Shown here: positions 1,739 through 14,830 of the stretch, piece by piece
How the letters are laid out: each line of letters begins with the position of its first letter
Position numbering within the stretch: position 1 is the stretch's first letter
Origin: Myxococcota bacterium
Lineage (GTDB): Bacteria > Myxococcota_C > UBA6777
DNA length: 16,049 bases
Reading direction: 5' to 3'
Assembly: GCA_023150835.1 (NCBI GenBank)
Contig: JAKLKB010000147.1
Location: 1-16,049, forward strand
Notes under the pieces: generated by a model
What the model was told of the DNA's origin: nothing
The model's input: the letters and a program-made list of their open reading frames with translations, nothing else
Databases searched by the model: none
Position numbers and translations under genes: made by a program

Positions 1739-4700
1739 ATGCGTTTTGGTTTGTCTTTTTGGGGCGCATATTGCGCCCTTGTATTGGGAGGGGTGGGTGT
1801 GGCGCACGCGCAAACGCCCTTGCCACCCACCAATCTTCAAGCCCAATTCCAACGAAACGGAAACTACACCGATCTCCAATGGCGGATGCAAGGGCGTTAT
1901 CAAGTTGCCGCTGATCTGCGACTGAACAGCCAGTACAACTTCCCCGTCGCAGAAGTCTTGGGATCGTGGGATCAACAAGGAGGTTCATGGAGTGTAAACG
2001 GCGCGGTATTGAGCCAGATCAGCGCAGGTCTCTCACCTGTATTTCGGGCGTGGCCGGGTGGTTTGGCGATGCGCGATTATGACTTTTCTGTTCGCGTCCG
2101 TTCTTCTGTTTTGACGGGCTTTGTGGGCGTTGCGTTTCGCTTCTCGAATGCCAACAACTCTTATTACGTTGCGATCGAGCCTTTGCGTGTGGCCTTGTAT
2201 CGACGGGTCAACGGAACAGATACTTTGCTCGCGCAACAAGCGGCCATTCGGGCTGTGAACACATGGTACTTGGTGCGTGTCTCTCCTCAAGGCACGACTC
2301 TTCGCGCAACTGTCGGCAGCATCACGCTTTCTGCAACCGACAACAGCCATCCCGAAGGTTCTGTTGCGCTCATCTCTAGCGGGATCACTTCGGATTTTAC
2401 AGGACCAACGACAGAGCTTGAGTTGCGCAATTCGGGGGGCATGGTGCGCTTTACGCCGACGCAGCTTTTTAGTGGGTGGACGCGGTTTGGCGTGGGAACG
2501 TGGGCCGTCAGCCCCAACGGCTACGAACTTCGTCAATCGATCAACACTCCCGAAGATACGGGCTATTTCAACCCAAAGCACACCACGCTCCGCGATTACA
2601 CCTACATCCAACAGATGCGCATTGATCCGCTCAATGACGACGATGTGATCGGTGTGGTAGTGCGTTACACCCAAAACCAAGCGACGCCTCACCGTTTTAC
2701 AGCGTATCTGTTTGAGTGGAATCGTGGAGGAGCCGGTGGAGTGCCGAACCGCCGGCTTGTACGTGTGACCAACGGGGGTTATGGAACCCACGGTGGTACG
2801 TGGCCGCGCATCAACCATACCGTCCTCTTTTCGGACAACGTGACGTGGGTTGGCAGCACATGGTACACGATCCGCGTCACCGTCCTCGGCCAGCGTATCC
2901 GTATCTGGATCAACGGTGTCTTGTGGGCCGATTATACGGACAACAACAGTGCTTGGATCCAACAAGGGGCTGCCGGCCCGCTCAACTGGTCGAACCCCAA
3001 CTACAATACACGCCACTTTACGCTGTATTACGCCAACGATGTCTTTGCCAACGCCACCGCAACCACTCCTGCGATCTCTGACATCACAAGCTCTTATGCT
3101 CGTCTTAACACCACCAACGTCAGCACGCTCCTGACCACACCGATCACGACATGGGCCACCACAAACGATATCCCCTTGGCCTTTTTGTCCGTCGATCAGT
3201 ACCGTGTGGTGTTCGAGGATCCTTCGACCTTTGAAGGGCTGATCAGCCCCGATGGGGTGGCCTCGACTCCGACCGATGGATCGGCCTTTGCGTACGGTCG
3301 TCAACGCGCTGGAACGCTGCGTTATCACGTCTATCGAAACAACACACGCCTCACCACCACCCCCGTCACTACGCAGACCTATCGCGACACCTACACCGCT
3401 TGCATTCCTGCCCCCAACACGACCTACAACTACCAAGTGACCGCCCTCAACCCCGCCAACAACGAAAGTGGGCGCTCAAACACCGCAAGCATCACCACCG
3501 CCAACGATCCACCCACCATCAGCGGAGTCCCCGATCAATCGGGAGCGCATGGTACTTCGTGGACGCTCGATCTGACGCCCTACATCAACGACCCGAACGC
3601 CGCCAAAAATACCCTTGTGATCACCGAAAATAGCGCCTTTGTCACCGTCTCTGGACAAACGCTGACGTTCCTTTATCCCGCTGCTTCGGGCGTCACTGCC
3701 GAGAATGTTATCCTCACCGTCACAGACTGCCACGGCGCACAAGCCTCCCAAACGATCCGCGTCACCCTACAAAACCGCCCACCCGTCTTTACGACCACCG
3801 CCCCCAACGCAGCCACCGAAAAAGCCACTTATGTGTACGACGCCAACGCCAACGATCCCGATACAGGCGATGTCGTCAACTACAAACTTACGCAAGGCCC
3901 CGCAACGGCGACCATCGACCCAACGACGGGCCGTGTCTCATGGACGCCCACCAACGCCGACTCTGGAAAGACCCTCACCTTCGAGATCGAGGCGTGCGAC
4001 AATCGCACTCCCCCCGCTTGTACGCGCCAAACGTGGCAAGTGACAGTCAGCAACGTCAACGATCCACCCACCATCACCTCAACCCCCCCAACCACCGCCA
4101 CCGAAGACCAGCTTTATACTTACCAAGTGACGGCTACCGACCCCGATACTGGCGACACCCTCAACTACAAGCTCAAAACCGCCCCTTCCACCGCGACCAT
4201 CGATCCCAACACAGGCGCGATCCGCTGGACGCCCGGGGATGCCGATGCAGGCAAAGATATCGACTTTGAAGTCGAAGTCTGCGACAAAGCAGGCGCTTGT
4301 GTCACCCAGTCTTGGAAAACCAAAGTCACCAACGTCAACGATCCACCCGTGATCTCTTCGACGCCACCGGCCTCTGCCACCGAAGATCAAGCCTATACTT
4401 ACGAGCCTACCGTCGCTGATCCCGACCCGAACGACACCCATACATGGAAGTTCAAAAAGTCTCCCACAGGCGCCACCATCGACCCCGCCACCGGCAAGAT
4501 CAACTGGACGCCCGGGGATGCCGATGCAGGCAAAGACGTCGACTTTGAGATCGAAGTCTGTGATGCCGCTGGTGTCTGTGTTTCGCAGTCTTGGAAGACC
4601 AAAGTCAACAACGTCAACGATCCACCCGTGATCACTTCGACACCTCCTCCAACCACCGATGAAGGCACCGCTTTTTCTTACAAACCCACCGCTACCGATC

Positions 4701-7408
4701 CCGATCCAAACGACACTCAGACATGGAAACTCACCAAAGGCCCCGCAGATGCGCAGATCAATCCGCAAACAGGCGAGGTGACATGGACCTCCAAAACAGG
4801 CGATGCCAACAAAGAGATCGATTTTGAGATCGAAGTCTGCGACGCTGCGGGAGCTTGCACCCGTCAATCGTGGAAAACCAAAGTCAACAACGTCAACGAT
4901 CCGCCTGTGATCACTTCTTCTGCCCCCACCGAAGCCTTTGTCGGGCGCGGGATGAACTACAAACCAACCGTCACAGATCCCGATACAGGCGACACCCACA
5001 CATGGAAGATCACCAAAGGCCCCGCAGGAGCCACCCTCGATCCCGCAACGGGCGAGATCAAATGGACTCCCGCAACCGCTGATGCCGGAAAAGACTTCGA
5101 GTTTATCGTCGAAGTCTGCGACAACGGCACGCCCCCACGCTGTTCTACCCAAACCTTCAAGGTCAAAGCCAAGCTACCTTGCGTCGTCGACATCGACTGC
5201 CCAACAGGCGAGATCTGTAGTGATGGCGCTTGCATCCCTGCTGGATGCGCCTCTCAAACACCCCAATGTGCGGCCTCAACCAACGTCTGCCTCAAGTCTC
5301 AGTGCGTCGCCGACCCTTGCGCAAACAAGACCTGCGCGGCTGGCGAGATCTGCCGTCCCACCGATGGTTTGTGCATCAAGCCTTGCGCGGGTGTCACTTG
5401 CCCCCAAGGCGAAGTCTGCGTCGATGGAACCTGTGCAACCGATGCTTGCGTCGCTGTTGGAAAAACCTGCGCCACAGACGAGATCTGCGACGGCAGCAAC
5501 GGCCAAAATCCGCAATGTATCAAAAACCCTTGCAACGCCACTTCTTGTCGTTTTGGCCGTGTCTGTTCGCAAGGCTCGTGCGTCGATGATCCCTGCCCGA
5601 AGATGGCCTGCCCCGATCCCTCAGGGCAACGCTGCGTCGCAGGACAGTGCATCGACCGCCAGACCTGTAAGGTCGATCTCGATTGCCCTTCTGCCGAGAT
5701 CTGCGTCACGGGCCGTTGTGTGCCTTCGGGATGCCACACCCAAACCCCCGTCTGTCCCCAAGCCAACCAGCTCTGTCTCGATGGCGGATGCAAGGACAAC
5801 ACTTGCATCACTTCTAGCGGAGCAAGCCCTTGTGCCAATGACGAATACTGTCGTCCCGTCGATGGAAAGTGCGCAAAACCTTGCGCCACCGTCCAATGCC
5901 CGACAGGGCAGCGTTGTGTCGATGGTGGCTGTCAAGCCGATCCTTGCGCCAATGTCCAATGTTCTGCGGGCCAAGTCTGTATCGCAGGGCAATGTCAACC
6001 CGATAACTGCAATGCCTCAAACGTCTGCAAACACGGGCGGATCTGCCGTTCAGACACCAACACCTGCGCCAGTGATCCTTGTGGTGGTGTCACCTGCCCC
6101 GACAATCGGCAGGTGTGCAGCCTCGGCCAATGTACCGCCCCTCCCACTTGCACCTTTGACAAAAATTGCCCCAACAACGCGCTCTGTGTGGGCGGAAAAT
6201 GCGTCCCTTCCAACTGCGATCCCAACACGCCTTGCCCCCAAGGAAAGCTTTGTAACAACGGGACTTGTCTCGAAGATCCTTGCACCAGCGTCACCTGCCC
6301 CACCGATCAGGTCTGCAAAGCGGGAACCTGCGTCGGAAGCTGCTTTGGCGTCTTTTGCCCCAAAGGACAGATCTGCTCCAACGGACAATGCAACCTTGAT
6401 CCTTGTGCCTCCATTCAATGTGCCCAAGGCGAAGTCTGTAAGGGCGGTATCTGCACGCCCAACACCTGCCAAAGCGACTCTTGCAAGCAGGGGCGGTTGT
6501 GCGAAGTCAACCGCTGCACCGACGATCCTTGCAACGGCTTGCGTTGTCCGACAGGAAGCACCTGTCAAAACGGTCAATGCGTCGGAGACAAACCTTGCAA
6601 AAATGACGCTGGCTGCGGTGGTGACGGTGTTTGCATTCAAAAGATCTGCAAAGACCCGGGATGCTACCGCGACGGCTGCCCCCAAACAAAGCTGTGTTTG
6701 GCCGGGCAATGTGTGGACGATCCTTGTGCTGCCAAGCAATGCGCAACAGGTGAACGCTGTCGCCCCGCAGATGCTGCGTGCGTCAAAGACTGCCCCGCTT
6801 GCCCCGCTGGACAGCGCTGCACCAACGGCCTGTGCGAAGCGGATCCTTGCGCGAGTGTGACCTGCAAAGACGGTGAGCGCTGTGTCAACGGGACTTGTGT
6901 CACCGACGCCTGCACCAATCCCAACGCCAAACTCTGCAAGTTCCAGCGCGCTTGTGACGCCGAAACGTGCAGCGACGACCTTTGCCTCGGTTTGCAATGC
7001 GCAGCCAACCAAACTTGTCGTGCAGGGATCTGTGTCGATTCTACAGGCACCACCGAAGGCACCACCGAAGGCATCACCGAAGGCATCACCGAAGGCACCA
7101 CCGAAAGCACCACCGAACCGATCTCTGACGCCTCGGAGTCTACGAGCGAAACCACTTCCGAACCGTCCAGCGAAACCACTTCGGAACCATCAAGCGACGG
7201 CACGTTGCCCGACGGAACCACCAACACCGAAGATTCTACAGGCGACAAGACCGTCGCAGAATCGGGCGCTGATAACGCCCAAGGCGATACTGGCGCAGGT
7301 ATCGTCGGCGGTGGTTGCAATTGCAGCACCTCCACGCCTTCTGCATCATGGTTCTTTGGTTTGTTCTGCCTGCTCTTGCTTTCTCTTCGCCGTCGTCTCC
7401 GCTCCTGA
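1739..7408 (+). CDS. Giant secreted multidomain surface protein with MYXO-CTERM-like anchor
   Basis: The product has 1,889 residues. A signal peptide ends at AHA-QT (cleavage after residue 24). Next come two beta-sandwich, LamG/thrombospondin-C-like domains (about 70-228 and 244-440), an FN3-like domain (480-590) and an Ig-like domain (591-680). Five tandem Ig/cadherin-like domains start at residues 681, 776, 869, 962 and 1055; each opens with PPVI/PPTI and carries DPDTGD-type and DPxTG motifs. Residues 1148-1765 hold 112 cysteines in four-cysteine units. A TTEG/Ser/Glu-rich linker leads to GGGCNCS (C1860, C1862), a hydrophobic helix (about 1869-1883) and RRRLRS. That tail matches the MYXO-CTERM plan of proteins that are processed and displayed on the surface of myxobacteria. 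The likely role is adhesion or an extended surface stalk; no catalytic motif is seen. It is transcribed alone and divergently from the DUF6159 gene. Confidence 0.93.
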   Translation: MRFGLSFWGAYCALVLGGVGVAHAQTPLPPTNLQAQFQRNGNYTDLQWRMQGRYQVAADLRLNSQYNFPVAEVLGSWDQQGGSWSVNGAVLSQISAGLSPVFRAWPGGLAMRDYDFSVRVRSSVLTGFVGVAFRFSNANNSYYVAIEPLRVALYRRVNGTDTLLAQQAAIRAVNTWYLVRVSPQGTTLRATVGSITLSATDNSHPEGSVALISSGITSDFTGPTTELELRNSGGMVRFTPTQLFSGWTRFGVGTWAVSPNGYELRQSINTPEDTGYFNPKHTTLRDYTYIQQMRIDPLNDDDVIGVVVRYTQNQATPHRFTAYLFEWNRGGAGGVPNRRLVRVTNGGYGTHGGTWPRINHTVLFSDNVTWVGSTWYTIRVTVLGQRIRIWINGVLWADYTDNNSAWIQQGAAGPLNWSNPNYNTRHFTLYYANDVFANATATTPAISDITSSYARLNTTNVSTLLTTPITTWATTNDIPLAFLSVDQYRVVFEDPSTFEGLISPDGVASTPTDGSAFAYGRQRAGTLRYHVYRNNTRLTTTPVTTQTYRDTYTACIPAPNTTYNYQVTALNPANNESGRSNTASITTANDPPTISGVPDQSGAHGTSWTLDLTPYINDPNAAKNTLVITENSAFVTVSGQTLTFLYPAASGVTAENVILTVTDCHGAQASQTIRVTLQNRPPVFTTTAPNAATEKATYVYDANANDPDTGDVVNYKLTQGPATATIDPTTGRVSWTPTNADSGKTLTFEIEACDNRTPPACTRQTWQVTVSNVNDPPTITSTPPTTATEDQLYTYQVTATDPDTGDTLNYKLKTAPSTATIDPNTGAIRWTPGDADAGKDIDFEVEVCDKAGACVTQSWKTKVTNVNDPPVISSTPPASATEDQAYTYEPTVADPDPNDTHTWKFKKSPTGATIDPATGKINWTPGDADAGKDVDFEIEVCDAAGVCVSQSWKTKVNNVNDPPVITSTPPPTTDEGTAFSYKPTATDPDPNDTQTWKLTKGPADAQINPQTGEVTWTSKTGDANKEIDFEIEVCDAAGACTRQSWKTKVNNVNDPPVITSSAPTEAFVGRGMNYKPTVTDPDTGDTHTWKITKGPAGATLDPATGEIKWTPATADAGKDFEFIVEVCDNGTPPRCSTQTFKVKAKLPCVVDIDCPTGEICSDGACIPAGCASQTPQCAASTNVCLKSQCVADPCANKTCAAGEICRPTDGLCIKPCAGVTCPQGEVCVDGTCATDACVAVGKTCATDEICDGSNGQNPQCIKNPCNATSCRFGRVCSQGSCVDDPCPKMACPDPSGQRCVAGQCIDRQTCKVDLDCPSAEICVTGRCVPSGCHTQTPVCPQANQLCLDGGCKDNTCITSSGASPCANDEYCRPVDGKCAKPCATVQCPTGQRCVDGGCQADPCANVQCSAGQVCIAGQCQPDNCNASNVCKHGRICRSDTNTCASDPCGGVTCPDNRQVCSLGQCTAPPTCTFDKNCPNNALCVGGKCVPSNCDPNTPCPQGKLCNNGTCLEDPCTSVTCPTDQVCKAGTCVGSCFGVFCPKGQICSNGQCNLDPCASIQCAQGEVCKGGICTPNTCQSDSCKQGRLCEVNRCTDDPCNGLRCPTGSTCQNGQCVGDKPCKNDAGCGGDGVCIQKICKDPGCYRDGCPQTKLCLAGQCVDDPCAAKQCATGERCRPADAACVKDCPACPAGQRCTNGLCEADPCASVTCKDGERCVNGTCVTDACTNPNAKLCKFQRACDAETCSDDLCLGLQCAANQTCRAGICVDSTGTTEGTTEGITEGITEGTTESTTEPISDASESTSETTSEPSSETTSEPSSDGTLPDGTTNTEDSTGDKTVAESGADNAQGDTGAGIVGGGCNCSTSTPSASWFFGLFCLLLLSLRRRLRS
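3779..5176 (+). repeat. Five tandem Ig/cadherin-like domain repeats in DNA
   Basis: Units begin at 3779, 4064, 4343, 4622 and 4901. The first is 285 bases and the next three are exactly 279 bases (93 residues). Parts are almost identical in DNA between units 2 and 3, for example the stretch encoding GDADAGKD (around 4237 and 4516), and the boundary encoding NVNDPP is nearly invariant. This indicates fairly recent duplication or gene conversion. Each unit carries a conserved Cys pair near its end (CDxxGxC or CDNxTPPxC). Confidence 0.9.
5180..7033 (+). repeat. Two-level cysteine repeat: 4 modules of 7 four-Cys units
   Basis: Modules begin at 5180, 5666, 6149 and 6596 (residues 1148, 1310, 1471 and 1620). 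Each contains exactly 28 cysteines by hand count, arranged as seven units of the form C-x4/5-C-x5-C-x4-C with a G before the last Cys. The sixth unit of every module has a basic CRFGRVC / CKHGRIC / CKQGRLC / CKFQRAC signature, which shows the modules are homologous as wholes. DPC or similar marks most unit starts. The spacing resembles small disulfide-rich EGF/TIL-like knots, but I do not assign a named domain. Confidence 0.85.
7049..7120 (+). repeat. 12-base tandem repeat, six copies, encoding T-T/I-E-G
   Basis: Six consecutive 12-base units (ACCACCGAAGGC and close variants) encode the TTEG/ITEG/TTES/TTEP linker between the cysteine-rich region and the C-terminal anchor. It is a likely length-variable spacer by slippage. 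Confidence 0.85.
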
Positions 7409-7443: not shown

Positions 7444-7527
7444 ATGGCATTTTGTATGCCCTCCCCCACCGAAAAGCCATCTGAGATGGCATTTTGTATG
7501 GCCTTCCCCATTGAAAAGCGATCTGAT
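7444..7527 (+). repeat. 42-base repeat, two tandem copies
   Basis: Units 7444-7485 and 7486-7527 begin ATGGCATTTTGTATG and end AAAAGC(C/G)ATCTGA(G/T). Right after the second unit, ATACAAAAT (7526-7534) is the inverted complement of ATTTTGTAT (7491-7499), so the copy can fold back on itself. There is no spacer between units and no cas gene. It looks like a dispersed intergenic repeat. Confidence 0.8.
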
Positions 7528-7643: not shown

Positions 7644-7702
7644 ATGGCGTTTTGTATGCCCTCCCCCATCGAAAAGCGATCTGATATGGCGTTGGGTGTG
7701 GG
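7644..7702 (+). repeat. 42-base repeat, third copy plus partial fourth
   Basis: A full unit (7644-7685) closely matches the pair at 7444-7527. It is followed directly by a fragment, ATGGCGTTGGGTGTGGG, that diverges after about ten bases. The unit contains ATGs in frame with the downstream SNF2 gene and creates a false upstream start for it. Confidence 0.75.
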
Positions 7703-7811: not shown

Positions 7812-10800
7812 ATGTTTTTTCTTCATGCGGGTTTGTGGTTGGATCGATTGGTTTTGTGGGCGGAGACGAAAACAGAGGAGTGTCCGACGAATGCGCGTGT
7901 TTGGGAAGATCGGTCGCGAGGCAAGAAGTGGTGGCTGCATCCGTATGCAGCGGAGTCAAAAGAACTGTTAAAGAGTGCAAAACACGGTGCGTTGGGGAGG
8001 TTTTTGGTGGGGAGCGAGGTGGAGATGTTGTGTGCATGGTTGCCGACACGACAGAACCTTCCGCTGCCATCGCAGGCGCGGGTGTTGGGGACTTTTCCGA
8101 GAGAGGGGGTGGTGGAACTGCGCCCTTGGTGTGTGGATGTTTTGGTGTTGGATGGATTGAAGGGGTGGTCTTTCTTGCAGCATCTGCAAGCGGGTGGTGA
8201 GTTGGGCGGGGATATCTGGCCCTCGGCGGAGATCTCGCAGATAGGGCGAGTGGTGGGGGTGGTGGGGCGCTTGTTGGCCCAACAGCGGTTTGTTCCGACG
8301 CTTTCGTTGGAGGAGGAAGAGAGGGCGGTATGGTCTCCGTTGTTGTATCGTGGGGATAAGGCTTTTGGAGAGTTGAAACGATCGCTGCCGGCGGTTTTTT
8401 TTGCGCTTTCGGAGATGGAGGAGGATGCAGCGCCCGAAGTGGATCGGTATGCGTGTTTGGGGCGGTGGGTGGGGCGTTATGTGGACTGGTGCGTGCATAC
8501 CTTGGCTGAAAAGATCGTGGATCTGCCGAAGGAGCCGAACGAAGAGGTGGAGATCTTGCCGAGGGTTCGGACAGGGGGGAGAGGGCGAGGGCCTGCCACA
8601 AGAAAGCAGTCAACGCAGCGGGCGGTTCAAAGCGGAGAAGAGGTGGAGATCTTGCCGAGGGTTCGGACGGGGGGGAGAGGGCGAGGGCCTGCCACAAGAA
8701 AGCAGTCAACGCAGCGGGCGGTTCAAAGCGGAGACGAGCGGGTCCACGAGCGCTGGTTGCGAGGGCTGTGCCGCTCGGCGTACCAAATCAAGGGGACAGT
8801 GAATGAGTTGGGTTCGTTAAAGAGCCAAGCGGAGACATGGGTGCGCCCGTTGCGGATCGCCGCGTCGTCTTCGTACCGTTTGGTGTTTCAGTTGGTGTCC
8901 CCAGACGAAGCGGATCTGTGGAGAGAGCCGGCAGAACAGCGAGAAGGATGGGAGGAAGCTGAACGGTCAGGCGAGCGGGGAGTGGAGACATCGGGGGGAT
9001 GGTCTTTTTCGAGCGCTTCTTTGGAAGAAGAGATCGAAGAGGCGGAGGATTGGACGTTGCGGTTGTTGGCGCGGCATCAAGAGGAACACAGTACGTTGTT
9101 GCCGTTGTCGCGTTTGGTTCAAGAAGATGCGGGAGCTTATGAGTATGCGTTGAGCGCGCTTGGACGGGCGACGCGGCTTGATCCGCAGTTCACGAAGCTG
9201 TTGGAACGAGCCGAAGAGATCGATCGATTGAAGCTGAGCACAGAAGAAGCTGCGCACTTTTTGACGGTGGTTGCGGAGATGTTGCAGCGTTCGGATGTGG
9301 AAGTGCTGTTGCCGTCGTGGTGGCGAACGGGGATCCAAGAGCGGTTGAGGACCAAGATCCGCGTCGAGACACCGAAGGAAACGGGAGGGGTCTTTTCGCT
9401 GGAGCAGTTGATGCGTTTTCGGTGGGAGGTGGCGCTGGGTGATCAGTCCTTGAGTGTGGAAGAGTTGAAGCGGTTGGCGGCGTTAAAGCGGGAGCTTGTG
9501 AAGATCCGAGGGCGTTGGGTGTTGCTTGATCCCGAAGAACTCAAAGAAGCTGCAAAGCTGTTGCGCTCACGAAAAGAGCAAGCCTCGATCCGCGACTTGC
9601 TGTTTGCATCGTTGGGGATGGAGTCGCCTGAGATGCCGTTGCCTGTGGGAGAGGTGGTGTCGGAGGGCTGGATCGAAGAGATCTTTTCGCAGTTTCAAAA
9701 AGGAGCGTCAGGCTTTGGACCGATGGAAGAACCGCAAGGCTTTGTGGGGAGCTTGCGGCCTTATCAGCGGCGTGGGCTGGCGTGGTTGTGTTGGATGGGG
9801 CGTTGGGGATTGGGGGCTTGTTTGGCCGATGACATGGGGCTAGGAAAAACCATCCAGACGTTGGCGATGTTGCAACACCATCTTTCGCAAACAACGAAGG
9901 CTTCGGAGAAGAAGCCCTCGCTGTTGATCTGTCCGATGTCTGTGCTGGACAACTGGCAACGCGAAGCCATCCGCTTCACACCGAAGCTGCGAACGATGCT
10001 GCATCACGGTGCGTCGCGTCAGACGGGAAGCGAGCTACAGCGAGCGTTAAAGAAAACGGATCTGGTGATCTCGACGTATGGGACGCTGCTTCGTGATATC
10101 GAAAGCTTGTCAAAGATCGCGTGGCGGGTGGTGATCCTCGACGAGGCGCAGGCGATCAAAAACCACCAGACCAAGACTTCGCGTGCTGCGGCTTCTTTGG
10201 AGGCGCAGCAACGGATCTCCCTGACAGGAACGCCCGTCGAAAACCATGTCTTTGATCTGTGGAGCCAGATGCAATTTTTGAATCCGGGCTTGCTCAAAGA
10301 TCGGGCGTGGTTCTCTCGGCACTTTTATGTGCCGATCCAGCTCGAACGCGATCCAAAAGCCAGTCAACGGCTCAAGCGCATCAGCGGCCCGTTTGTGTTG
10401 CGACGGCTAAAAACAGACAAAGATATCATCGACGATCTGCCCGACAAGATCGAGTCCAAGGTGTACTGCCACCTGACCAAAGAACAAGTCGGTCTATACG
10501 AAGCAGCATTAGAGCAGATGACTGTGCGGATCGAGACGACGGAAGATCCGATGCAGCGGCGCGGATTGATCTTGTCGTTGTTGACGCAACTCAAGCAGAT
10601 CTGCAACCATCCGGCGCATTTTCTCAAAGAAGGCATCGCGCAAGCCGAACGCTCAGGAAAACTGTTGCAGCTTGATATGTTGGCGGCTCAGATCATTGGG
10701 CGCGGAGAGGCCGTTTTGTTGTTCACGCAGTACACAGAGATGGGCCGTTTGTTGGTGCGTTATCTCGAAGAGCGCTTTCATCGCGATGTGTTGTATCTGC

Positions 10801-12083: not shown

Positions 12084-14830
12084 TACGGGAGGTTGAAGAA
12101 TTGATGCGTCCGTCCTGTCTGCAATGCAAAAGAGAACTTGATGAGGAGCTTCCTTTTTGTCCGTGGTGTCGTTTTCCTCGCAAAGTGCTTGCGGGAAAAT
12201 ACCGCTTGTTGTCTTTGCTTGGCGAAGGCGGTATGGGCATCTTGTATCATGCCGAACACATCGGCCTTTCGATGGATCGAGACCGCGCCATCAAGTTGAT
12301 CCCCGAAGCCCTCTACCAACAGCCTTCGATCGCCAAGCGCTTGCGCCGCGAGATCGAAGTCACTTCCTTTCTGTCCAAAAAGTGCGATCACATCGTCAAA
12401 GTCTACGATGACTTCGGCGAAGAAGACGACATGGGCTTCTTTTATGTGATGGAACTTTTGTCGGGAAAGAGCCTGCGCGATTTTTTGCGACACCACGGAT
12501 ACTTGTCTTTCTCTGTGGCGCTGCACTTGTTCGGACAGATCTGTGAAGCCATCCATCTCGCCCACCAACACGAGATCTTGCACCGCGATCTCAAACCCGA
12601 AAATATCTTCCTGATCCAACGCCCCGAAGATCCGCTTTTTGTCAAAGTGATCGATTTTGGCATCTCGCGTTTTCTGCACGATGCCAATACGCAACTTACG
12701 CGTGGAGTCGTCGGAACACCCGTCTATATGGCCCCCGAACAGTTTGGTAGCACCGAAAGCAGCCCACGCACCGACATCTACGCACTCGCGCTGATCTTTT
12801 ACGAGATGCTCACGGGCGCTGTGCCATTTGTTCTTGCCGACGACAGCCCCGTCGCCATCGGCATGAAACGATTGACCGAGCCTCCCCCCCACCTTTCGAC
12901 CCATTATCCCTCTTTGCAGATCCCCCACCACGTCAGCGATCTGCTGGTTCAATGCCTGCGCACACACCCGCATCAGCGCCCCGAAAGCGTCGCCGCTCTT
13001 TGGTCCCAACTTGCACCCTTCGCAACACCCGCTGCTGTACTTCGTTTGCCTGATCTTTTTTCGCAAACGCCCACACATCGAGGACTTCCCCTTTCCTCGG
13101 GAGTCCCTGTCGACATGGCTCTCGGCGCTTTGCAAGCACAGCCTCCGCTGGATCCCGCTCAATCCCCACCACCTGCTTCTCCCTTAGAACATCCGCATGG
13201 ATCCAAGTGGCTGCGCGTGTTTTTCGGTGGACTCGCCCTCTGCACAAGCCTTGTTCTCGGTGTCTGGGGAGCTTCATTTGTCGCCAAACGCCTTTCCTCC
13301 CCAATGCCTCGCGCCCTCGCTCCGCTCCATTCCACGCCTCCCTCGCAAATCACGCCTCCCTCGAATCTGCCGAGGCTATCACAACCATCCAATCTACCGA
13401 GTCTATCACAACCATCCAATCTACCGAGTCTATCACAACCATCCAATCTACCGAGTCTATCACAACCATCCAATCTACCGAAGCTATCGCAACCCTCGCA
13501 AATTACGCCGCCCTCGCAACCCTCACAACCCTCGAATCTGCCGAAGCTATCACAACCCTCGAATCTGCCGAAGCTATCGGGATTGGAAAAGCTGTCGAAG
13601 TTGCAAAAGCTGTCGAAGTTGCAAAAGCTGTCGAAGTTATCGCAACCGACAATCCCCTCGCTGCCCTCGCAACCGACGATCCCATCCCAACAGCCGCAAC
13701 GGCCTCCCTCGCCGCCGTCACAACAGCCGCAACGGCTACAATCGCCGCCACAACGGCCACAATCATCGAGGGCGACGGAGCCGTCTGCACCGTGGTTCAG
13801 CGTGTTGCCTGATCCGATACCTGTTCGTCTTCCTACAATGCAAGAGCCTGTGCGAGAACGCCCGATGGTGCGCGTACAAGAGCCTGTGCGAGAACGCCCG
13901 ATGGTGCGCGTACAAGAGCCTGTTGTGGCTCCTCGGGTCGCCACAGATTCGGGAGGGCCGTCGGTTCGTCCCGCGCAGCGGGGGAAGATGCGTGTTGAGC
14001 GCACACGCGAGCAGATCGTGGCGGAGATCGCACGCGAACGAGCCGAGGAAGAACGCCAGATGCGCGCAAAACAGCGGGGCGTGGAAGATGGGCTACCTGC
14101 GCGTTTTGTGACGCCCGTCAAGCCGCCCGAGATGAAAGAGTGGACCGAGGACACCGCAGAACGAGCGCGCTATCAGCACCAAACGGACGATCCTGCGGCG
14201 GATATCCGCCGAAAGATGGAGATCTACCGATTTTTGTTGATGCGCCGTTATCTTGCCCTCGAAAAGAGCGGATACAGCGATGTGCGCAGCTTTGGTTATT
14301 TTCTTGGCGACATCGAGCGGGTGTGGCAGCGTGCAAAGCAGCATCTTTCGGCGAAGGAGATCGCTGCGTTTGGGGATATCTATGCGCTTTCGATCCTGTT
14401 GAAGATCCGTATGGATGAGGGGTTGCACTATCACAAGTATTGGGCGATCCCGATCCCTGATCTGTATTCCGCAGCGGGTCATGCCGAAAAAATGCACGAG
14501 ATGCTGTTGCGTTGGGAGGCAGCATACAACCAGCATTCTTCGTTGATATCGTCCTTGGCTCCGCGTTGGTGGAGTTGTGCGTTGTTGGATCTTTTGCGAG
14601 CGGGGATCATGAGTTCGCGGTTGATTCGGACTTTTCGGCCATCCCAAGGCGATCAAAAAAAGTGGCCCGATTGGCCTGAGACGATGGTTAACGTCGAGCG
14701 ACGGGAACAAGCCTTGCGCAAGGAGATCAGGCGCCTCTTTTTGGAAAGCAGGCGTTTGCAACGAAAGCACCGCCTGAAGGGATGGGCCTGTTCGGATCTG
14801 GCGGATGCGCTGGGCAAGCACGCACGTTGA
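12080..14830 (+). CDS. Hanks-type Ser/Thr protein kinase with zinc ribbon, membrane helix and repeat linker
   Basis: The protein has 916 residues. An N-terminal zinc ribbon (C13, C16, C27, C30) precedes a complete kinase domain: GEGGMG (48-53), K72, HRDLKPEN (168-175, catalytic D170), DFG (192-194) and APE (218-220). The domain ends near residue 315. A single membrane helix follows (about 376-401). Then comes a Pro/Ser/Leu/Gln repeat linker (405-585), a doubled VREPRPMV-like segment (VRERPMVRVQEP), a charged Arg/Glu helix (around 635-660) and an unrecognised, mostly helical C-terminal domain (about 680-916). Topology suggests a cytoplasmic kinase and an exported C-terminal part. The ATG at 12080 overlaps the SWIM stop as ATGA, giving translational coupling; the ATG at 12104 (residue 9), with GGAGG upstream, is an equally good start. 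Linkage to SNF2-SWIM is tight, but substrates are unknown. Confidence 0.93.
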   Translation: MIREVEELMRPSCLQCKRELDEELPFCPWCRFPRKVLAGKYRLLSLLGEGGMGILYHAEHIGLSMDRDRAIKLIPEALYQQPSIAKRLRREIEVTSFLSKKCDHIVKVYDDFGEEDDMGFFYVMELLSGKSLRDFLRHHGYLSFSVALHLFGQICEAIHLAHQHEILHRDLKPENIFLIQRPEDPLFVKVIDFGISRFLHDANTQLTRGVVGTPVYMAPEQFGSTESSPRTDIYALALIFYEMLTGAVPFVLADDSPVAIGMKRLTEPPPHLSTHYPSLQIPHHVSDLLVQCLRTHPHQRPESVAALWSQLAPFATPAAVLRLPDLFSQTPTHRGLPLSSGVPVDMALGALQAQPPLDPAQSPPPASPLEHPHGSKWLRVFFGGLALCTSLVLGVWGASFVAKRLSSPMPRALAPLHSTPPSQITPPSNLPRLSQPSNLPSLSQPSNLPSLSQPSNLPSLSQPSNLPKLSQPSQITPPSQPSQPSNLPKLSQPSNLPKLSGLEKLSKLQKLSKLQKLSKLSQPTIPSLPSQPTIPSQQPQRPPSPPSQQPQRLQSPPQRPQSSRATEPSAPWFSVLPDPIPVRLPTMQEPVRERPMVRVQEPVRERPMVRVQEPVVAPRVATDSGGPSVRPAQRGKMRVERTREQIVAEIARERAEEERQMRAKQRGVEDGLPARFVTPVKPPEMKEWTEDTAERARYQHQTDDPAADIRRKMEIYRFLLMRRYLALEKSGYSDVRSFGYFLGDIERVWQRAKQHLSAKEIAAFGDIYALSILLKIRMDEGLHYHKYWAIPIPDLYSAAGHAEKMHEMLLRWEAAYNQHSSLISSLAPRWWSCALLDLLRAGIMSSRLIRTFRPSQGDQKKWPDWPETMVNVERREQALRKEIRRLFLESRRLQRKHRLKGWACSDLADALGKHAR
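12088..12092 (+). promoter_or_regulatory. Ribosome binding site for the alternative kinase start at 12104
   Basis: GGAGG sits 11 bases upstream of the ATG at 12104, which would begin the protein at MRPSCLQC, directly at the zinc ribbon. The upstream ATG (12080) has only a weak AGAAG (12068-12072). Both starts give the same protein apart from eight residues. Confidence 0.5.
13364..13588 (+). repeat. 27-base tandem repeat encoding NLP(S/K/R)LSQPS
   Basis: Five consecutive 27-base units run from 13364 to 13498; units 2-4 are essentially identical. A 36-base interruption follows, then two more units (13535-13588), the last one degenerate. They encode the linker after the kinase's membrane helix. 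Identity at DNA level suggests active expansion and contraction. The unit stays open in other frames and on the other strand, which produces long false open frames there. Confidence 0.9.
13589..13642 (+). repeat. 18-base tandem repeat encoding KLSKLQ
   Basis: Three units (13589, 13607, 13625), the third diverging at its end, encode KLSKLQ-KLSKLQ-KLSKLS. The stretch is Lys/Leu-rich and directly follows the NLPxLSQPS repeats; in a helix it would be amphipathic and positively charged. Confidence 0.85.
13841..13912 (+). repeat. 36-base tandem duplication in the kinase linker
   Basis: Two identical copies, 13841-13876 and 13877-13912, begin CAAGAGCCTGTGCGAGAACG. A third partial copy (about 11 bases) starts at 13913. 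They encode the duplicated 12-residue segment QEPVRERPMVRV. Confidence 0.9.

Follow-up and report, generated by a model that had tools for sequence, protein, structure and literature searches.

The seven-unit block described here, in which seven four-cysteine units follow one another in a fixed order, is a real and well-conserved super-repeat in a protein whose kind is already known, and apparently one not previously described as a unit. Four such blocks in series form the cysteine-rich array of a large protein encoded in the window, i.e. the whole 16,049-nucleotide stretch of contig JAKLKB010000147.1 that was analysed, from a Myxococcota assembly of 7.56 Mb. The array probably serves a surface protein of the outer membrane as a disulfide-locked stalk that presents Ig-like and LamG-like domains, the protein being anchored by a MYXO-CTERM-like tail. 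The features of the gene are collected in Table 1.

Table 1. Predicted features of the gene and its product in the window
Feature	Residues	Position	Strand	Basis or remark
Complete gene; its product a secreted surface protein anchored by the tail	1889 aa	1739..7408	+	
Sec signal peptide	1-24	1739..1810	+	Sequence inspection; likely cleavage after AHA (MRFGLSFWGAYCALVLGGVGVAHA/QT)
N-terminal head: jelly-roll/LamG-like region and FN3-like stretch	26-590	1814..3508	+	PF06439 match
Tandem He_PIG / Big_9 Ig-like domains, about five He_PIG-type	591-1147	3509..5179	+	Pfam
Stalk module 1, seven units, 28 Cys	1148-1309	5180..5665	+	Clade M1, support 100/97
Invariant unit-6 Arg, module 1	R1274	5558..5560	+	Arg at Cys3-2
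Stalk module 2, seven units, 28 Cys	1310-1470	5666..6148	+	Clade M2, support 99/96
Unit-6 Arg, module 2	R1434	6038-6040	+	Counterpart of R1274
Stalk module 3, seven units, 28 Cys	1471-1619	6149..6595	+	Clade M3, support 98/86; AF2-modelled
Unit-6 Arg, module 3	R1586	6494-6496	+	Counterpart of R1274
Stalk module 4, seven units, 28 Cys	1620-1765	6596..7033	+	Clade M4, support 97/90
Unit-6 Arg, module 4	R1737	6947-6949	+	Counterpart of R1274
Low-complexity acidic Thr/Ser/Glu linker (TEGTTEGITEG...)	1766-1856	7034..7306	+	12-bp repeat
MYXO-CTERM-like tail: GGGCNC motif, membrane helix, RRRLRS	1857-1889	7307..7405	+	TIGR03901 just under cut-off

Periodicity of the array

The translation bears out the original count of 28 cysteines in each of four modules, 112 in all within residues 1148-1765, and cutting the array at every fourth cysteine yields 28 units, seven C-C-C-C units per module as had been proposed. 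The typical unit comprises about 21 residues with the spacing C-x4-C-x5-C-x4-C. The period was tested by aligning the 28 units all against all, averaging the score per lag and shuffling the unit order 20,000 times. Units pair at a distance of seven (mean score 53.7) and not with their neighbours (35.5); the means at lags 14 and 21 are 50.8 and 46.3, while those at all remaining lags up to 20 lie between 32 and 38.5. Best pairing between adjacent units, which had been named beforehand as the pattern that would refute the block period, was therefore not observed. The excess score of same-position pairs is 15.8, a value reached by none of the 20,000 shuffles (mean 0.0, SD 1.7, maximum 7.8), and the best partner of a unit stands at the same module position in 17 of the 28 cases, against 3.1 expected. 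Within the window protein the modules are about 40-49% identical to each other, cysteines included.

Conservation and growth of the array

The source genome codes for two further full-length arrays, 53% and 51% identical to that of the window protein, and for more than a dozen proteins with shorter array matches, further ones being present in relatives. Within the phylum, the comparison set consisted of five genomes, all from one family; in these related genomes the 112-cysteine array occurs in 13 proteins that are 46-95% identical, and all 112 cysteine columns are invariant in their alignment (cluster counts of 114 cysteines take in two from the Ig domain that precedes the array). The orthologue in the second species of the genus (L047) has an open reading frame and an array of 95% identity. 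Between these two species dN/dS is 0.05-0.09 in the head, the Ig-like domains and the array, and the value for the array, 0.09, indicates that it is under purifying selection. Both dN and dS of the Thr/Ser/Glu linker exceed those of the head, Ig-like domains, array and tail.

In a tree of 52 modules, modules 1 to 4 form four separate clades (bootstrap 97-100), each with all 13 proteins, and the four-block array is thus older than the split of these paralogues. The search for homologues with other multiples of seven units, suggested by the original prediction, was rewarded with block numbers of 1, 2, 3, 4, 5 and 6: two blocks in L066, three in L057, L058, L063, L065, L082 and L083, five in L078 and six in L079, with 42 units in register. 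The arrays of L055, L056, L059 and L062 are irregular by a few cysteines. In a wider quick tree, supported by SH-aLRT only, the four-block and three-block Ig proteins fall into one group (99), with the three-block arrays corresponding to modules 2-4, and the five- and six-block pair forms a group of its own (87). This topology, with its moderate support, suggests separate rounds of block amplification. The proposal that the array grew by duplication of a seven-unit block and not of single units thus stands in its first part, given the period of seven, the clades and the range from one to six blocks, and is too strong in its second, which applies to the later step only: homology among the seven units means that duplication and divergence of single units came first and the block was copied later.

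The tandem-repeat finder, which detects a 279-bp repeat at 4045-5122 in the Ig-like region and a 12-bp repeat at 7045-7117 in the Thr/Ser/Glu linker, found no DNA-level tandem repeat in the array, and a recent DNA duplication was accordingly rejected as the origin of the period. A rival reading takes the array for an unstructured cysteine-rich spacer of which only the length matters, with a period left by such a duplication. Some cysteine-rich repeats of TraA, a protein of comparable architecture, are indeed dispensable for function (PMC6626042); yet the modules of the window protein have diverged to less than half identity and predate the paralogues, every cysteine is invariant and dN/dS is low, so that a mere spacer is very improbable. 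A viral origin was likewise rejected, as the array profile found no relative when run against IMG/VR.

Register marks and single blocks

Register was counted on 44 modules from 11 proteins, two near-identical proteins having been left out. That unit 6 is basic in every module had been noticed in the window protein, where it is true of 4 of 4 modules, and the observation extends to all 44. An arginine two residues before the third cysteine (Cys3-2) is present in 44/44 copies of unit 6 and in 0/264 of the other units, and a lysine or arginine directly follows the second cysteine of unit 6 in 44/44; the mean net charge of the unit-6 loop is +1.98, that of the remaining unit classes -0.14 to -1.02. 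The linker after unit 3 has three residues and the linkers after units 1, 2, 4 and 6 have four, without exception in the 44 modules. Apart from the cysteines, only the Asp of unit 1 and the Arg of unit 6 are invariant columns. Seven four-cysteine units, the three-residue linker, the unit-1 Asp and the unit-6 Lys/Arg and Arg occur together in each of the four modules of the window protein and in every one of the 44 counted. Judged by sequence, the unit-6 Arg, the unit-6 Lys/Arg and the three-residue linker are register marks of the block.

The block also extends beyond the multi-block proteins. Profile matches in other Myxococcota proteins are concentrated on module 3 and mostly terminate at the last unit of the array, and many other Myxococcota surface proteins end in a lone block whose units follow the same order. 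When 30 such arrays were compared over their seven terminal units, the register in which the last unit equals unit 7 was the best in 28, and in 13 of the 15 arrays outside the family. The three-residue linker after unit 3 is found in 27/27 single-block arrays (13/13 outside the family), a count that leaves out two out-of-register arrays, and almost nowhere else; the arrays were gathered by profile similarity and are therefore a biased sample, although the linker position was not directly selected. Their hosts include Kofleriaceae and Sandaracinus-type MAGs, together with a few MAGs under other labels.

In these single-block arrays the unit-6 Arg is kept in 10/14 inside the family and in 4/13 outside. 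This bears on the possibility that the blocks themselves bind, the basic patch on unit 6 of each block attaching to LPS, extracellular DNA or exopolysaccharide and the array thereby offering a multivalent surface. The strict retention of both basic residues in the 44 modules, amid loops that are otherwise neutral to acidic, and the place of the Arg as one of just two invariant non-cysteine positions would agree with such a role. An invariant Arg may equally be structural, however, and outside the family the block persists where the Arg is mostly lost, which leaves binding by the blocks a rather unlikely function.

Predicted structure

AlphaFold2 modelled module 3 from 44 rows with a pLDDT of 90.4 and a pTM of 0.72; each of the seven units forms a beta-hairpin in this model, centred on its Cys3 and Cys4. 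In the model of the whole array nearly all hairpins are kept (pLDDT 83.7), but the pTM of 0.47 makes the stiffness of the 28-unit array less certain than that of one module, and the model falls short of showing a straight, rigid rod. The earlier expectation of an ordered, defined structure, as opposed to a random cysteine-rich spacer, is nevertheless upheld by the module prediction and by the invariance of all 112 cysteines. The earlier figure of about 56 disulfides stays a prediction; two disulfides per unit are likely, because the number of cysteines is even, a secretion signal is present and hairpins are predicted.

The very high cysteine content might alternatively recall a metallothionein-like store of free thiols or metal. 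The signal peptide and surface tail would place the protein in an oxidising space, however; the hairpins are predicted confidently, the cysteine spacing differs from the CxC/CxxC of metallothioneins and a conserved unit order would be needless, all of which renders such a store extremely improbable.

Sequence comparison with solved structures gave no homologue at E<=1. For the module, Foldseek returned no match at E<=0.001, the matches being mostly EGF-array and other cysteine-rich receptor proteins with TM of about 0.1-0.2, and none of the 259 chains compared by VIA-align reached Z>=2. For the full array, Foldseek returned NEL (E 4e-6) and LRP2 (E 9e-4) at TM of only 0.02-0.08; these were rejected as the same fold and read as EGF-likeness. 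In these fold comparisons, the overall arrangement of the predicted module and array thus had no counterpart in the PDB, whereas the models do resemble EGF-type arrays locally.

Gene architecture and predicted surface anchoring

Scanned against Pfam, the window protein shows in its head a match to PF06439 (3keto-disac_hyd) at residues 283-410 (31.5 bits, cut-off 26.8), and the head may, to judge from the sequence, include an FN3-like stretch; the Ig-like domains score 127.5 bits with PF05345 and 97.7 bits with PF17963. The tail lies just under the cut-off of 20 bits for TIGR03901: the genome search gave it 19.7 bits and the scan of the whole protein 14.3 bits. The paralogue L045 passes with 22.8 bits. 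The source genome holds 30 MYXO-CTERM loci over the cut-off, a match to an MrtX-like protease (NF040593) at 98.9 bits, under the cut-off of 180, and two type II secretins GspD over the cut-off of 351 (492 and 484 bits). For TraA of Myxococcus xanthus, likewise a MYXO-CTERM protein, cleavage by MrtX and surface anchoring have been demonstrated experimentally (PMC11980579). Sister proteins also have the array flanked by Ig-type domains and by a GGC-C/membrane helix/Arg tail; their heads vary while the stalk is constant, which is what a display device of standard design would show.

Comparison with known families

The closest parallel in architecture is TraA of Myxococcus xanthus, which likewise has a signal peptide, an N-terminal domain (for recognition in TraA), cysteine-rich repeats and a MYXO-CTERM tail. 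TraA contains 71 cysteines in nine repeats, the first five of them in tandem, and its authors proposed that the repeats form a rigid stalk (PMC3325183); by analogy, the present array probably acts as a stalk as well. The two proteins differ in the head, which is PA14 in TraA and LamG/Ig-like here (scanning the window protein with Pfam gave no PA14 match at E<=10), and a seven-unit super-repeat is not described for TraA. Membership in TIGR04201 (Myxo_Cys_RPT), which the literature search found only in the TraA paper, was rejected, the best score being 18.4 bits at 5180-5233 against a cut-off of 25.

Among Pfam families, PF23416 (DUF7107) covers part of the block. Module 3 scanned alone scores 36.4 bits over units 1-2 (cut-off 24.6), and at E<=0.1 the family is matched by 36 of the 44 modules; the whole window protein, at 18.8 bits, stays under the cut-off, and the paralogues L051 and L054 reach 27.3 and 28.5 bits. 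The DUF7107 model, of unknown function, has 48 positions and covers two units without the seven-unit order. A second parallel is Drosophila Dumpy, an extracellular protein in which EGF-DPY-EGF arrays, with a DPY module of 21 residues, form a higher-order repeat (PMC2930355). Like the block, it sets short disulfide modules in an ordered higher-order repeat; unlike it, Dumpy belongs to the animal extracellular matrix and alternates EGF with DPY. PF21164 (DPY) matches 17 of 44 modules weakly (best E 6e-5) and the full proteins L050, L053 and L058 at 17-19 bits, below the cut-off of 27, and it is absent from the Pfam matches listed for the window protein; the resemblance is likely convergence.

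Weak matches to FOLN (the follistatin/osteonectin EGF-like hairpin), Dickkopf_N and the EB module, in 1, 9 and 5 of 44 modules (best E 0.02, 0.001 and 0.012, respectively), reflect small cysteine-rich modules of similar pattern, for which homology is not established. Strung protease-inhibitor or toxin-like knottins, which sub-threshold haemadin matches (19.5 bits in L054 against a cut-off of 25; 3 of 44 modules at E<=0.1) might suggest, are most improbable in view of the four-cysteine hairpin units and the many competing weak matches to other EGF-like modules. The heads of some sister proteins match the N-terminal models PF24907 and PF24908 of SIBA-E, the integrin-beta-like (Sib) adhesion proteins of Dictyostelium, with PF24907 below the cut-off and one PF24908 match above it; neither model matched the window protein in the Pfam scan. 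The Pfam and NCBIfam scans yielded no family covering the whole seven-unit block, and a literature search on dickkopf-type repeats in Myxococcota found no publication on it.

A proposed stalk model

In the proposed model of a displayed stalk, each unit would fold as a small beta-hairpin, probably with two disulfides, and seven non-identical hairpins in fixed order would make up one structural block, its register set by the short linker after unit 3, the longer first loop of unit 1 with its Asp and the basic unit 6. Four blocks in series would form a long stalk. The protein would be exported by Sec, its MYXO-CTERM-like tail processed by a myxosortase-type protease and, after type II secretion, it would be lipid-anchored at the cell surface, where the stalk may raise the Ig-like and LamG-like domains off the membrane for contact with a partner surface or polymer. 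More tentatively, the block could be one repeat of a disulfide-locked superhelix, copied whole (1, 2, 3, 4, 5 or 6 times) by Myxococcota-type bacteria as a molecular ruler for the stand-off of adhesive heads from the outer membrane, in which case the basic patch, present once in each repeat, may pack adjacent stalks together.

Biological significance

Cysteine-rich stalks of bacterial surface proteins are easily overlooked as low-information repeats. In the present case, the order, count and register of 28 four-cysteine units are kept among paralogues that are only about 50% identical, and growth proceeds by sevens, which defines a domain that can be modelled, solved and counted across genomes. 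Many surface proteins of myxobacteria and related bacteria contain the block in one to six copies. The number of blocks may offer a testable link to the distance at which surface proteins stand off the cell, in a group whose contact-dependent behaviour is well known.

Block number and neighbouring repeats

The block of seven ordered four-cysteine units also occurs in other numbers, the array of locus L079 (contig G004:C65) comprising six blocks and that of L078 five, all in register, and these two arrays probably arose by an amplification separate from that of the other arrays. At L065, L082 and L083, repeats of the CDGxDNDCDG type (MopE-like) precede a three-block array, in place of Ig domains. 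The Ig-domain repeat of the main gene is visible at the DNA level, thus indicating that these domains were duplicated or homogenised later than the cysteine blocks.

A further repeat lies directly 3' of the main gene, and its core recurs once more where the following ORF begins; a genome search with the 20-bp core found no further copies elsewhere. Coding repeats are also found in the SNF2-type helicase gene, where 32 residues are doubled, and in the Ser/Thr kinase-like gene, where they encode the peptides SQPSNLPKL and LSKLQK.

Coordinates of repeats and of the protease match
Feature	Position	Remarks
279-bp tandem repeat (DNA level)	window 4045-5122	72% matches; within Ig domains of main gene
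42-bp repeat	window 7444-7526	
Further copy of its core	window 7644-7666	
96-bp direct repeat	window 8541-8738	98% matches; SNF2-type helicase gene
27-bp and 18-bp tandem repeats	window 13364-13638	Ser/Thr kinase-like gene
MrtX-like protease match	G000:C16:11515-11829	98.9 bits; C-terminal half of model only

Protease and adhesion-like heads

The MrtX-like match, which shares its contig with a gene for a MYXO-CTERM protein, is perhaps a divergent myxosortase.

The heads of the sister proteins L045, L050 and L054 begin with ASHFRGGTL and resemble the integrin-beta-like Sib adhesion proteins of Dictyostelium: in a Pfam scan, those of L045 and L050 scored 22-25 bits against PF24907 (below the cut-off of 28.1), and that of L054 scored 28.8 bits against PF24908 (above the cut-off of 27.8). 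Transfer of an adhesion head, or common ancestry, may possibly link these proteins with Sib.
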